The translations under genes were made by a program, and so were the position numbers. A DNA stretch of 64,000 nucleotides. It comes from Holdemania sp. Marseille-P2844. GTDB taxonomy: Bacteria > Bacillota_I > Bacilli_A > Erysipelotrichales > Erysipelotrichaceae. Within the stretch, counting starts at the first letter, position 1; each line of letters starts with the position of its first letter. Under the pieces are notes generated by a model. The model saw only the letters and a program-made list of their open reading frames with translations, was not told where the DNA came from and did not search any database. The stretch is from positions 62,001-126,000 of the forward strand of contig NZ_LT635448.1 of NCBI RefSeq assembly GCF_900120005.1, written 5' to 3'. Positions 35,688-43,954 of the stretch are shown here, piece by piece.

Positions 35688-36023
35688 GTTATTTTATTGA
35701 GTTGGAATAAAAGCAGATCAACGCTGAAATTAATTCAAGAAAGGCAAAAAGATTGTTTCATTCGTTATTCGATCGCAGGCTTAACTAACTATTTTAAATA
35801 TTCACGATAATACATGGGGATTAAGGTAGATCATGTTAATTTGGAAAAAGTGATGAGTCTATGAATTACGATGTACAGCTTCTCAAAATGGGATGTTTCT
35901 GACGTGAGAGTGCAGCTGATTTAATACATAGATTCGGATTGCCGACACGCTGCTTTATACAGATAAAAAGCGAGGTTTGATAACTGATATTCGTAAAAAT
36001 TACTCCGTTGCGGTCAATCTTGA

Positions 36024-36300
36024 AACAGTCGTGCCGGCCGCAATGTTTTTGAGATCGCCTCCGGGATAGCCGCAGATGCCTCTATTTCTCATCATTCCGC
36101 TTTTGTATATGACAAACAAAGGATGGAAATTCGCAAATAAATTGAAAATGAGCTGAAGAATATCATGACGACACAGGGATATACGCTTTCTGATCGCAGT
36201 AAAAAGGTTCAAAGTTTGGATTCATTTATAGATCAGTCTTTCATAAAAATAAGATCTAACAGATGGAAACGCTCGATATCCAAAGAACCCAGCGCCTGAT
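36024..36300 (+). pseudogene. Decayed ORF of unknown family
   Basis: Between kdgK and the cysteine-rich gene, the frame starting near 36024 reads protein-like sequence (SRAGRNVFEIASGIAADAS, VYDKQRMEIRK), is broken by TAA at 36138-36140 and continues IENELKNIMTTQGYTLSDR. An adjacent frame upstream (TDIRKNYSVAVNLETV) may join it by a frameshift. The remaining sequence of 35688-36023 shows no other gene. The family is not identified; the tail faintly recalls alarmone-synthetase-type sequence, but that is a guess. Confidence 0.35.
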
Positions 36301-36868
36301 AACAGCTGTTGCAATAGGCGACCACTCGTTTGTCAGGATAGTAACCAGCCTGAGCTTGCAAAAGCTTTTGCTGCTTGGCAAAATCCAGAATTTTAACCTG
36401 AGCCTGCAGCGCTTTGAAGTAAGTCGGGGCGCTTTGCAGATTTCGCTCGCTGATCGGATTCATCAAAAGGGTGCCGCAGGTGGGCGGCGCTGTCTCACCC
36501 ATTTCATGCACGGTATAATTCATTCTCGCCAGCAAGCTGCGAACCTGACGGCGCAGAGGGACATCTGCCCGGGCGCAGTCCTGCAGCGTGATGACCTGTC
36601 CGTGCACATCAGGCCAGAGAAACTCACAATCCTGCTCCAACAAGTCATAAAGTGTTATGACTGAACAAGAAGGAAATCGTTCTTTAAGAATCGCTGTGCA
36701 GCTGAGACAAACCGTGATCAGGGTATCGCCGGACTGAAACTTCAATCCCTCACTCCGGCAGCAGCCCGTCGTTTCAGCGTTCCAGCGACATTGAAGATAA
36801 TCCCTTATTTCAGCGGCAGTTTGCGGATGGGCAGCCTGAAACTGACAGCTGGGAAATGCAGTAAACAT
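36233..36868 (-). CDS. Tandem CCG-domain cysteine-rich protein (HdrB-like)
   Basis: 211 residues with two Cys blocks. Block 1 has Cys8, CC at about 36-37 (TGCCRSEG) and CxxC at about 54-57 (VCLSCTAIL). Block 2 has LQDC near 98, PPTCG near 133 and YCNSC near 187-190. This C...CC(G)...CxxC spacing in duplicate resembles the CCG domains of heterodisulfide reductase HdrB, GlpC and LutA, which hold unusual iron-sulfur clusters. ATG 36868 has AAAGGAGGG upstream. It lies 12 nt downstream of the PRD regulator gene in the same transcript. Function unknown. Confidence 0.6.
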   Translation of the reverse strand: MFTAFPSCQFQAAHPQTAAEIRDYLQCRWNAETTGCCRSEGLKFQSGDTLITVCLSCTAILKERFPSCSVITLYDLLEQDCEFLWPDVHGQVITLQDCARADVPLRRQVRSLLARMNYTVHEMGETAPPTCGTLLMNPISERNLQSAPTYFKALQAQVKILDFAKQQKLLQAQAGYYPDKRVVAYCNSCYQALGSLDIERFHLLDLIFMKD

Positions 36869-36880
36869 CAAATCCCTCCT

Positions 36881-38779
36881 TTAGAACTGACTGAACTTTG
36901 CCATGAATTCATCATAATTTCTCGTTTCCAACAATTCAAAAGCCAGATGACTATTTTGAATAATTTTGGAGATTTTATCAAAGAAAATCCGTGTCAATGC
37001 CTGATTCTCATTGATACAGACCAAGAAAATAATCTGAACCGGTTTCGCATTCCACGTCACCGGTTTTTTCAGCTTGCAGATGGAGATAAAATTCGGCAGC
37101 TGTTCCGGGTTTAACGGATGCGGAATCGCAATTTTATTATTATATTCGGTTGTCCCCATGCGCTCCCGGGCGGCGACGGAATCATAGAAATTCGCAGGCA
37201 GCGGCAAACTTTTTCGAATGTGTTCAATTTGTTTCATCAAGGCTTCCTGCCGTGAAGAAGCGCTGATTTCCAGATACAGCTCGGGACGGATCAGTTTGTC
37301 CAGATGAAACTTCTCATTCAGATTGTTCAGCAGCAGGCGCAGGATATGCAGATCATTCTCCGAAAGACTTGGCTGGATTTTTAACGTCGGTTTATCGAAA
37401 CGCAGATTCATTTCCGTGGCATTAAGAATCACGTCGAACTTTTTCAGTTCCTCTGCATCCAGCGATTTCGCATCGAACAGCTTGACCAGATTGATAAAAT
37501 CCGCCAGCGTTTTGTTTAGCCGGTAAGCGATCAGCTTAAACAAACTGGAAATATCGTTGGAGATCACGGCGATATTCACTTTTACCCGCGCTTCCGGGCC
37601 CCGCTCCAGAGCCAGCGCGATGTGCAGCGTGAAGTACATGATTTCTTCCTCGGACACGGCGATGCCATATTTTCTGGGAATAAACGACAGGCCGCAGACC
37701 GCCAGCTCGTTGGCGAACGGAAACTCGTCGCGGATCGACGACAGATTCGACTGCGTGACCTGCATGTTATTTTCCAGCCGGTGCAGAAACGGCACGATGT
37801 GCGTTAAGAGATTCGCCCGCAGATCCTTATCCTCAAACAAATCGATTTTGGACAGCTTCAAGATATTGCGCAGAAATAAATTATAAAAAACAACGGCGTC
37901 CTGCGGCAGATCCTCACCCAGACTTCCATGATCGGCGTTGATTTTCTTTTTCCCGTTGATATGGAAGGCAAAATAACACAGCTCCGCTTCCGGCAGCGAC
38001 ACATGGAAAATTTCCTCGATCGAGCGGTTGATATCAATCGCTGTTTTGTATTCCAGCGACTGCCGCATGGCTTCGCTGACTTCCTGATTGATGATATTGT
38101 TGGTTTCCACGCGGTTGATCGCGATCAGAATATGCAGCGACAGCGCGCTGCAGGAATCGGCGGTGATCGAAATGTTCGCGTTCATCAGTGATTCCGCGAT
38201 GACGTGCTGAATCAGGCTCAGCTGCTTCGATTTGTAACTGGTCTCCTGCGGCAGAAAGTCGATGATTCCGCTGATCGACGCTTCCTTGGACAGACATCGG
38301 CGGATATCCTTTTCCTTGCCGGTGATCCGATAGCCGTTGCTGTGACTGTGCTGCAGTGTCAGATGATAGCGTTCCAGCGTCGGCTTCAGCTCCTTGAGAT
38401 CCTTGCGCAGCGAGGAAGGAGAAATATAAATTTCATCGGCCAGATCGTATAAATTGAGATATTCATTTTCTGTGATCAGCCGGGCAAGCAGATATTTTTT
38501 GCGGTTTTCCGGAGAGCCGACGTCATTGACTTCCCCCACGCTTAAAGACTGGACATAATGATTGAATTTATCCGGATCGTAGACGATCAATACCGATCCT
38601 GATCCGCGCTTGATTAAAATATCAGCCCCGTTTTCCATCAATTCATCCTTGAGCTGATTGATGTATTTCAACAATGTCTTGACGCTGACGTTCAGCGTAA
38701 AAGCCAGCGCCGAGCTGGACAGCGGTTCCGAGGAAGCCATCAGCTTCTGAAGCAGAATCAGCCGGTCTTTTTCGTACAT
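36881..38779 (-). CDS. PRD-containing PTS regulator (LicR/MtlR-type) with EIIA domain
   Basis: 632 residues: HTH at 1-60 (SSSALAFTLNVSVKTLLKYI), second HTH region (about 85-150), PRD1/PRD2 (about 175-395), EIIB-like domain (about 400-480, NIAVISNDISSLFK, no Cys at the phosphorylation position) and EIIA domain (about 500-632) with His554 in KIAIPHPLNPEQ. It is divergent from a lactose/cellobiose-family PTS operon at 38961, with an inverted repeat between them, so it probably controls that operon according to its substrate. Confidence 0.88.
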   Translation of the reverse strand: MYEKDRLILLQKLMASSEPLSSSALAFTLNVSVKTLLKYINQLKDELMENGADILIKRGSGSVLIVYDPDKFNHYVQSLSVGEVNDVGSPENRKKYLLARLITENEYLNLYDLADEIYISPSSLRKDLKELKPTLERYHLTLQHSHSNGYRITGKEKDIRRCLSKEASISGIIDFLPQETSYKSKQLSLIQHVIAESLMNANISITADSCSALSLHILIAINRVETNNIINQEVSEAMRQSLEYKTAIDINRSIEEIFHVSLPEAELCYFAFHINGKKKINADHGSLGEDLPQDAVVFYNLFLRNILKLSKIDLFEDKDLRANLLTHIVPFLHRLENNMQVTQSNLSSIRDEFPFANELAVCGLSFIPRKYGIAVSEEEIMYFTLHIALALERGPEARVKVNIAVISNDISSLFKLIAYRLNKTLADFINLVKLFDAKSLDAEELKKFDVILNATEMNLRFDKPTLKIQPSLSENDLHILRLLLNNLNEKFHLDKLIRPELYLEISASSRQEALMKQIEHIRKSLPLPANFYDSVAARERMGTTEYNNKIAIPHPLNPEQLPNFISICKLKKPVTWNAKPVQIIFLVCINENQALTRIFFDKISKIIQNSHLAFELLETRNYDEFMAKFSQF

Positions 38780-38850: not shown

Positions 38851-38882
38851 AAAGGTAAATTCTTCAAATAAAGTTTACCTTT
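38851..38882. promoter_or_regulatory. AAAGGTAAA/TTTACCTTT operator
   Basis: AAAGGTAAA (38851-38859) and TTTACCTTT (38874-38882) form a perfect 9-bp inverted repeat with a 14-nt spacer, midway between the PRD regulator and the PTS operon. Likely target of the regulator. Confidence 0.55.
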
Positions 38883-38960: not shown

Positions 38961-39275
38961 ATGAACATTTTACTGGTCTGCGCCTGCGGTTCCAGCACCA
39001 GCGTCGTCTTGCAGAAAATGAAAGAAAACCTGACAAGCGACGAACCGTGGACAATCGAAGCAAAGTCGCTGTCGGAGGCGAAGAAGGTCATGGGGAAATA
39101 TGACTATGTCCTGCTGGCGCCGCAGATCCGCTATCAGATCAAAACGGTGCAGAGTCTGGCCGAGCCGTATGAGGGCTTAACGGTCATGAACATTGAACCG
39201 GCAGACTTCGGCCGCTGCAATGGCAAGGCGATTCTGGATCAGATTCGCCGCTGCGAACAGGCAAAACAAAAATAA
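38961..39275 (+). CDS. PTS lactose/cellobiose-family EIIB
   Basis: 104 residues. The P-loop reads LLVCACGSSTSVV, with the phospho-cysteine Cys7 and an extra Cys9 where most relatives have Gly. It transfers phosphate from EIIA (40679) to the sugar bound by EIIC (39300). AGAGGAGGG precedes ATG 38961. It is the first gene of a IIB-IIC-IIA set probably extended by the GH1 gene. Confidence 0.92.
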   Translation: MNILLVCACGSSTSVVLQKMKENLTSDEPWTIEAKSLSEAKKVMGKYDYVLLAPQIRYQIKTVQSLAEPYEGLTVMNIEPADFGRCNGKAILDQIRRCEQAKQK

Positions 39276-39299: not shown

Positions 39300-40655
39300 A
39301 TGGCGAAACAACAGCACGAAAAAAAGAAATTCCTCGACCGGTTTGAAGAATTATGTATGCCGATGGCGACCTTCTTCGGAACCGAACCGCACTTTCTGGC
39401 GCTGCGCGACGGCGTCGTCAGCGCGCTGCCGTTTACGTTTGTCGGCGGCATTGCTTTCTTAATCTACAAGTGTCCGTGGCAGGAAGGCTACGCGACCGGC
39501 GTCGGTTTCTTTGACGCCTTCATGAACGCCTGGTTCCAGATGTCGACGAACTTCAAGGACATCTGTTATGCGCCGTATGGAGCGACGCTGGGCATCATCT
39601 CGATTTTCATCTGTTTCACCGTAGCGTATTCGCTGGCCGAGCATTATAAAAAGAACGCCGTCAATTTCGCGGTGTGCGCAACCTCGATATATCTGTTGAT
39701 CGCCTCACCGGTTATTTCCGGCGCGATGTCGATTGCCTATTTAGGCTCCGTCGGCATTCTGGTCGCCTGTCTGGTCGCTCTGGGATCGGTGGAAATCATG
39801 CGGATTTCGATTGAGAAGGGCTGGACGATTCACATGCCGCCCAGCGTCCCGCAGGTCATTGAGAATACGTTCAGTACGATTTTCCCATATGTCTACGCGT
39901 TGATACTCTTCTATGCACTGAGCGTGATTTCCCAGCTGGCTTTCGGCAAGCTGCTGCCGGAGCTGTGGCAGTACATCTTCACGTTAATTACCGTGGCGGT
40001 GGAAAACCCGGTCGCCGTCACCGTGCTGACCGCGTTTGAAAACCTGTTGTTCTCGTTCGGCATTCATCCGACGACGGTCGTCGGGCCGCTTCTGGATCCG
40101 CTCCAGCTGGTCACGCTGACCGCCAATGCCGAAGCCTTCGCGGCCGGTACCGCGCTGAATGCTCTGCCGCACGTCTATACCCAGTCGTTCTGGGCGTATT
40201 ATTCCTGCATCGGCGGAGCGGGCTCCACGCTGGCCTTGTGCGCAATGTGCGTCAAGAGTAAGTCGAAACAGCTCAGCGCCGTCGGCAAGGTGGCGATCAT
40301 TCCATCGCTGTTCAATATCAACGAGCCGGTGATCTTCGGCCTGCCGATCTTCCTGAATCCGATTCTGGTCATTCCGTTCATGTTAGCGCCATCGGCCAAT
40401 ATCCTGCTGGGCTGGCTGTGTACCTCGCTGGGGCTGGTCAATCATTCGTTCCTGTTTTTGACCTCGACAACGCCGACCGTGCTGGGCGCGTTCATCTCGA
40501 CGCTGGACTGGCGTTCCTGCCTGTTAGTCGTCGTGATGTTTGCGATCGACTGGGTGATCTATTATCCGTTCTTCAAGATCTATGAAAAACGCTGCATCGA
40601 GCAGGAAAGCGGGGAAGCCGCTGAATTGGAAGCGTCCGCCAACGCATCCGCATAA
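39300..40655 (+). CDS. PTS lactose/cellobiose-family EIIC
   Basis: 451-residue polytopic permease. The cytoplasmic N-terminus FLDRFEELCMPMATFFGTEPH leads into about ten hydrophobic helices. The conserved loop SLFNINEPVIFGLPIFLNPILVIPF is diagnostic of the family and contributes to the sugar site. The substrate is likely a beta-linked glycoside, given the adjacent GH1 gene. Confidence 0.93.
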   Translation: MAKQQHEKKKFLDRFEELCMPMATFFGTEPHFLALRDGVVSALPFTFVGGIAFLIYKCPWQEGYATGVGFFDAFMNAWFQMSTNFKDICYAPYGATLGIISIFICFTVAYSLAEHYKKNAVNFAVCATSIYLLIASPVISGAMSIAYLGSVGILVACLVALGSVEIMRISIEKGWTIHMPPSVPQVIENTFSTIFPYVYALILFYALSVISQLAFGKLLPELWQYIFTLITVAVENPVAVTVLTAFENLLFSFGIHPTTVVGPLLDPLQLVTLTANAEAFAAGTALNALPHVYTQSFWAYYSCIGGAGSTLALCAMCVKSKSKQLSAVGKVAIIPSLFNINEPVIFGLPIFLNPILVIPFMLAPSANILLGWLCTSLGLVNHSFLFLTSTTPTVLGAFISTLDWRSCLLVVVMFAIDWVIYYPFFKIYEKRCIEQESGEAAELEASANASA

Positions 40656-40678: not shown

Positions 40679-40993
40679 ATGACCGATATCAAAATGACAG
40701 CTTTTGAAATTATCTCGTATGCCGGGGACGCAAAAAGCTCTGCTTACGAAGCGCTGGAAGCGGCGAAACAGAACGATCATGCCGGCTATGAAGCGAAGAT
40801 GGAAGAAGCGGAAAATAAAATTAACGAGGCTCACAAAGCGCAGTACGCGATGCTTCAGGAGGAAGCCGCCGGACAGATGCACGCCGAGTTTTCGATCATC
40901 GTCGTGCATGCTCAGGATCATTTGATGACGACAATGGCGACGATCGATCTGATCAAAGAGCTCAGCGAACTGTATTTCCTGCGGCACGCATAA
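40679..40993 (+). CDS. PTS lactose/cellobiose-family EIIA
   Basis: 104-residue helical protein forming trimers in this family. IIVVHAQDHLMTTM contains the phospho-histidine His77 and the metal-binding Asp80. Preceded by GAGGC at a weak ribosome-binding site, 23 nt after EIIC, and followed by a terminator. Confidence 0.94.
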   Translation: MTDIKMTAFEIISYAGDAKSSAYEALEAAKQNDHAGYEAKMEEAENKINEAHKAQYAMLQEEAAGQMHAEFSIIVVHAQDHLMTTMATIDLIKELSELYFLRHA

Positions 40994-41161: not shown

Positions 41162-43267
<2,106 letters not shown>

Positions 43268-43280
<13 letters not shown>

Positions 43281-43954
43281 TTTTGTTGTCAGTCCTGGGC
43301 GTTATGGGGCTGGCTCTGCCGCTCACGTTGATTCTCACGGCGAAAGAGAAACCGAAAATCCCAGGCGTCTTGTTTGGAGCCACATTTTACTTAACCGCCA
43401 ATCTGTTCTTGAATGTGTTTAAAAATGCCTGGTCGCTGAATCTGGATACGCCCACCTCCACGGTCTTTTATTTGATCACGGCGGTCTTGACCTGGACGCT
43501 GACCGCCGCGTTGTTTTTTCGCCGTTTTCGTCCGGCTTCGCTCGGCAGAATCAGTCTGATTTATGGCGGCTATGCGCTGATCAATACGTTTGTCGTGACG
43601 ATGGCCAGCTATTCTCCGCTGATTCAGTATGGTTTACTGGAGGTCAGCGGTCAGACTGCCCAGCTTCCTGCGGCATCGGCCGCGATATTGAGCGCCGCTT
43701 ATGCTTCTCTTGGTCCGCTGGAGCTAATTCTGGCATTAATTGAACTGGTGGTGGTTTTCCTGATTCTGGCCCAGCTGTTCCGGCGGTTATTCGCAGATGA
43801 TTCGGTGAAGCGGCTGGCGGAGTTTGGTCTGGGATTGTTCCTTTTGATGGTGATTCAATATGGAAAATGGGGAATGCTCGTCAGCTTCATCGCCTATGGA
43901 ATGGAGCTTGCGGGACTTCTGACACTTGGTAAACAAAAGAAGTTGAAACCATGA
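43268..43954 (+). CDS. Hypothetical polytopic membrane protein
   Basis: 228 residues with about seven hydrophobic helices (near 3-24, 32-52, 65-85, 100-118, 135-155, 160-180, 195-220). No catalytic or transporter motif is recognised. AAGGAGGA lies 7 nt before ATG 43268, within the end of the YczE-like gene. Its stop overlaps an interrupted ORF as ATGA. Confidence 0.65.

Follow-up and report, generated by a model that had tools for sequence, protein, structure and literature searches.

A protein of 211 residues (P0001), encoded in Holdemania sp. Marseille-P2844 between a sugar-type regulator gene and what looks like a decayed gene, is, judging from its sequence, a two-domain protein related to the HdrB-type dicluster module but standing alone. 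Across its family we observe a link to sugar utilization genes that is real, though not exclusive. This recurrent pairing in related gut bacteria suggests that a redox step connected with sugar use has been overlooked.

The relevant features of the 64,000-nucleotide stretch of DNA that was analysed (hereafter, the window) are as follows.

36233..36868 (-): 211-aa predicted HdrB-like (CCG-superfamily) protein P0001, with site 1 at C8/C36/C37/C54/C57 and a remodelled site 2 at C98/C131/C186/C189
36881..38779 (-): PRD transcription regulator, with HTH_11, Mga HTH, PRD (two stretches matched) and C-terminal EIIA_2 (Pfam)
38851..38882 (no strand): 9-nt perfect inverted repeat, AAAGGTAAA / TTTACCTTT, arms 14 nt apart, in the PRD/IIB divergent intergenic region
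38961..39275 (+): PTS IIB, lactose/cellobiose type (PF02302, 1.5e-10)
39300..40655 (+): PTS IIC, lactose/cellobiose family (TIGR00410, exceeds its cut-off)
40679..40993 (+): PTS IIA, lactose/cellobiose type (PF02255, 1.4e-30)
41171..42679 (+): GH1 glycosidase, 6-phospho-beta-glucosidase-like (nearest models are 6-phospho-beta-glucosidases; the ATG at 41234 is the likelier start)
42654..43280 (+): YczE-type membrane protein (NF052291 7e-20, under cut-off)
43268..43954 (+): membrane protein with no Pfam or NCBIfam match (relative in locus L115: 29.7% identity, E 8e-10)

The gene order given in the preliminary description holds. The 211-aa gene starts with an ATG 12 nt past the stop codon of the PRD regulator gene, on the same strand, with a Shine-Dalgarno-like AAGGAGGG within this gap, and the IIB-IIC-IIA-GH1 operon starts at 38961 on the (+) strand, divergent from the pair. 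LicR/CelR-type beta-glucoside PTS operons combine a PRD activator carrying EIIA_2 with IIB-IIC-IIA and a 6-phospho-beta-glucosidase-like enzyme. The Holdemania locus has each of these elements: its regulator shows the HTH, the PRDs and the EIIA domain of the LicR/CelR type (a Pfam scan detected no EIIB-like domain), and it stands beside IIB-IIC-IIA and a 6-phospho-beta-glucosidase-like GH1. The locus differs in adding the dicluster protein and the YczE-type membrane protein, the latter a repeated neighbour of P0001 relatives; we know of neither in LicR/CelR-type operons of Bacillus. The inverted repeat, a possible operator of the PRD regulator, is also present in H. filiformis, where the whole intergenic region is 98% identical. 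No cre-like site was found in the window. At about 35860-36200 of the window lies what looks like a decayed gene: an ORF start similar to that of H. filiformis runs into a stop codon about 13 codons on. The H. filiformis counterpart is an intact 261-aa ORF (L021:10417-11202) with no Pfam match, the start of which is reminiscent of AbiEi-type antitoxins.

Kinship of the 211-aa protein with CCG proteins, as put forward in the preliminary description, is supported by sequence comparison, through a model other than the one originally proposed. A Pfam scan of P0001 matched nothing, the gathering score of PF02754 (CCG) not being reached, and PF02754 gave weak matches in 3 of 11 relatives (best E 0.032). 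NCBIfam model NF045663 (pyridine nucleotide-disulfide oxidoreductase/dicluster-binding protein), in contrast, matched P0001 with an E-value of 4.4e-12, as well as all 11 relatives. With P0001 the match covers the C-terminal part of the model only, and its 44.9 bits lie far below the full-length cut-off of 530 bits, so that P0001 is not assigned to the equivalog. We then aligned three full-length NF045663 proteins from genomes of the same family as an hhalign target; the P0001 family profile (A1) matched them along its whole length (97.8%, E 6.5e-13; A1 2-213 on 449-660). The C-terminal dicluster domain of NF045663 is homologous end to end with the P0001 family over 186 columns. The cysteine blocks match, and so does a conserved histidine towards the C terminus, H202 in P0001; P0001 differs in being this domain alone, without the N-terminal part of about 430 residues, and in having four rather than five ligands at site 2.

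LutA and YkgE, which consist of two CCG-type halves, are kin to this type of protein. They are of similar size and likewise carry a conserved His shortly before the C terminus, whereas neither LutB nor LutC adjoins the window gene. Comparison of the P0001 family profile with the single E. coli YkgE sequence gave no match (hhalign, 0.4%). A PDB sequence search with P0001 or its alignment returned nothing usable, the single match (E 4.4) being attributable to chance, and an AlphaFold model built on two alignment rows was unusable (mean pLDDT 33.5).

The preliminary description read two C...CC...CxxC blocks in the protein. The first stands (C8, C36-C37, C54xxC57) and is canonical in all 63 rows of our alignment of relatives; the second reads C98...TC131G...C186xxC189, without a CC pair. 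P0001 thus departs from the two five-cysteine noncubane sites of HdrB, its site 2 holding four cysteines. In 59 of the 63 rows, P0001 included, one Cys of the pair is gone, and in 13 of these 59 Asp substitutes for the remaining one (pair position: xC(G/P) in 46 rows, xDG in 13, CCG in 4). The first cysteine of site 2 is shifted by one in 58 rows and lost in one. Seven cysteines, C8, C36, C37, C54, C57, C186 and C189, are invariant in 63/63, so the conserved pattern expected of homologues is found despite the lack of a PF02754 match for P0001. The H. filiformis DSM 12042 homologue is 87% identical to the window protein; since relatives outside Holdemania are only 26-32% identical, this invariance goes beyond chance.

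Both sites are canonical in the full-length NF045663 proteins (GCC...CxxC; DAC...CCG...CxxC). In a tree, the four rows with a canonical site 2 (L045-L047 and L118) group with the NF045663 rows, separate from the others, which are remodelled; on this branching, a dicluster domain with two sites was probably inherited by the P0001 lineage, which then rebuilt site 2. The 63 rows exclude eight matches covering at least half of the profile (G467, G476:C4, G492:C230, G493:C122, G496:C33, G500, G502 and G521:C33) as well as the relatives at L081, L082, L098 and L111, which were missed by an overlap-resolving gene caller and recovered afterwards; all four of the latter have a remodelled site 2, and none has an adjoining GH1.

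Family members were sought within the phylum. Within the order, 60 of 315 genomes give matches at a threshold of 1e-6, a small number of which are fragments or full-length NF045663 proteins; so do 11 of 395 genomes drawn from the class and 10 of 392 drawn from the phylum, these last positives being mostly common to the class sample. Nearly all class and phylum positives belong to the Erysipelotrichales, the order of Holdemania. No relative was found in the plasmid collection or by a scan of viral_contigs, and our literature search found no paper on the P0001 family or on its link to GH1/PTS operons, although such work may be in print beyond that search.

The absence of a partner subunit, reported in the preliminary description, holds for the neighbours scanned: no Hdr (HdrA and HdrC included), Lut (LutB and LutC included) or Glp subunit is found among them. 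A search of the whole Holdemania genome with PF02754 gave no match; of 14 control genomes, 12 gave one. A search of the genome with P0001 returned P0001 alone. Because of this genome-wide absence of PF02754, the 211-aa protein stands alone as the only CCG-type protein found in its genome. This sets it apart from HdrB and EtfD, as does the lack of a cubane-cluster domain. HdrB-type clusters serve electron transfer in methanogens, in sulfur and lactate metabolism and in beta-oxidation, and in all cases known to us they come with partner subunits or additional domains.

We then considered the genes surrounding family members at 61 loci. This set includes the fragmentary L048, which is outside the 63 rows, and leaves out L045-L047, which are among the rows, since it is confined to genomes with collected GH1 counts. 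GH1 is the immediate same-strand neighbour in 11 of the 61 loci, at distances from overlapping to 77 nt. Based on GH1 numbers per genome, for which the higher candidate counts were used in place of a set capped at 24 per genome, and presuming random gene placement at about one gene per kb, 1.15 such loci are expected (P 1.7e-8). The excess persists when counted by genus (6/17 versus 1.02 expected, P 7.9e-5), and adjacency amounts to 11/65 once L081, L082, L098 and L111 are included.

Several arrangements underlie this figure. PRD genes in relatives are labelled by their blastp clustering with the PRD protein of the window, and RpiR and LysR labels are our reading of the sequences rather than a profile search. 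Five loci (L022, L028, L074, L075 and L078) have an RpiR-like gene, GH1 and the dicluster gene in this order, and L100 has the same with the RpiR-like gene divergent. Three others (L083, L088 and L090) show PRD, IIA, GH1, dicluster gene and RidA, and L044 shows PRD, dicluster gene, YczE and GH1. A set of eight genes (IIB, IIC, IIA, GH1, membrane protein, YczE, PRD and dicluster protein) recurs in Holdemania, G610 and G413. It is split into two divergent units in the window, forms one run in L115 (IIB, IIC, IIA, GH1, membrane protein, PRD, dicluster gene, YczE; IIB from a separate match) and is spread in G413 over two contigs that seemingly abut inside the PRD gene. At L048:9423-9786, what is left of the dicluster gene is fused to the start of a GH1; the two genes have decayed together into a short ORF and a fragment. 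Conserved co-occurrence with a PRD regulator, which the preliminary description proposed to look for, is seen in the window's clade (the window itself, W, with L021, L044, L113 and L115; support 88/93), where PRD lies directly upstream in 5/5 members with gaps of 6-12 nt, but this tie is not kept across the family at large.

We also considered a tie between the dicluster protein and a single GH1 subfamily. In a first tree, all 16 linked GH1s fell in a single clade with 1 of 22 unlinked GH1s, the latter being a biased sample made up mostly of top profile scorers. Once unlinked GH1s of the same subfamily were added (16 linked, 44 unlinked), the linkage label required 6 changes: eight linked GH1s form their own clade and the other eight are scattered among 20 unlinked ones. 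The linked GH1s thus do not form one clade, and this tie was rejected. In the Holdemania genome G002, GH1s of the window's subfamily are present and the dicluster protein is absent, which indicates that the pathway can do without it.

Other family members occupy different settings. At six loci (L025, L026, L027, L029, L030 and L119) the dicluster gene lies behind two half-size split chromate transporters, both of which match PF02417 in L025, and a divergent LysR-like gene is present in the five loci whose contig extends far enough. In g38, relatives in this setting overlap a gene of 203 aa, for which a weak biotin-ligase-like match is all that was found. At L110 and L121 the dicluster gene diverges from a gene for a CbiM-type cobalt transporter (identity tested by profile in L110), and a conserved gene of 172-174 aa is found downstream. 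Peptidases and MATE are among the further neighbours, and many loci have no telling neighbour. A divergent family member at L103:7937-8632 is located inside an array of near-identical genes of 262-278 aa, six in the cluster, which we read as esterases.

Such variety raises the question of whether the sugar setting, real as it is, may be incidental. A generic redox or stress protein moving between operons would function alike in chromate-transporter, LysR and other settings, and would be expected to show the diverse neighbourhoods just listed, from GH1 and split ChrA (with its divergent LysR-like gene) to CbiM, peptidases, MATE and the esterase-like array, with 50 of 61 loci lacking an immediate GH1. 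We hold this to be rather unlikely, as GH1 adjacency is about ten times expectation and three genera retain the eight-gene set although it has been rearranged. The position of the gene might instead reflect an Fe-S or thiol-based sensor acting with the neighbouring transcription regulator and not in metabolism. A regulator is directly upstream in several architectures: PRD throughout the window's clade, a LysR-like gene in L023 (gap 15) and an RpiR-like gene in L107 and L116 (gaps 86 and 128). However, the type of regulator varies, the dicluster gene follows GH1 and not the regulator in the RpiR-GH1 group, and the LysR-like gene is on the opposite strand in the chromate-transporter loci, all of which makes a sensor distinctly improbable.

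The cysteines themselves may be read otherwise. Four-Cys sites can hold zinc, site 2 tolerates a change from Cys to Asp (13/63) and no electron-transfer partner is encoded nearby, as might be expected if the protein bound zinc and had a structural or chaperone-like role instead of a redox one. Yet all 63 rows retain the five cysteines of site 1, CC pair included; this is one above the need of a zinc site and is the same set as in the noncubane site, so that we regard a zinc protein as improbable.

An asymmetric redox protein is favoured because an intact site 1 is combined with a four-Cys site 2. P0001 shares with HdrB and EtfD two tandem CCG-type sites, of which site 1 has the 1+2+2 Cys pattern of a noncubane [4Fe-4S] site. 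The two solvent-accessible noncubane clusters of HdrB cleave a disulfide, and EtfD sets a precedent for two unlike clusters: its ligand-depleted site binds a linear [3Fe-4S] cluster through four Cys, its other site a noncubane [4Fe-4S] cluster, both serving electron transfer (PMC13083937). The EtfD cluster type is not transferable to site 2 of P0001, since a different Cys of the pair is missing: the second is a Thr in EtfD, whereas the first is replaced in P0001.

We thus propose, with confidence evenly balanced, that the 211-aa protein is an asymmetric Fe-S redox protein of HdrB-like type that stands by itself and was co-opted to assist beta-glucoside use, with a putative cofactor and substrate; we infer this role in sugar use from linkage alone. 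The protein would be co-produced with the PRD regulator when a beta-glucoside is available. Site 1 would bind a noncubane [4Fe-4S] cluster and might be the active site; site 2 would hold a different, four-ligand cluster (C/C/C/C, or C/D/C/C in some relatives) and might act as an electron relay. Ferredoxin or flavodoxin, as an external donor of low potential, may supply the electrons for a redox step, thiol/disulfide or other, in support of the beta-glucoside pathway.

A bolder version, which we consider unlikely, is that the protein is an HdrB-type reductase specific to this lineage and dedicated to beta-glucoside use in gut Erysipelotrichales, asymmetric in that its active site is noncubane and its relay cluster remodelled. 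It would reduce a disulfide or aglycone released by GH1, or keep the phosphorylated Cys of the lactose/cellobiose-type IIB reduced, and sugar uptake would then be coupled to the low-potential electron pool of the cell. More broadly, the fact that a partner-less HdrB-type protein with a rebuilt site 2 occurs throughout the Erysipelotrichales, and repeatedly in sugar PTS operons, suggests that current annotation misses a redox step of carbohydrate use in the gut. Variation at site 2 between C/C/C/C and C/D/C/C may also provide a natural series on how a protein chooses its cluster type. Finally, two dicluster-family genes from different subclades are found in tandem at L095:7788-9331, with an overlap of 4 nt.
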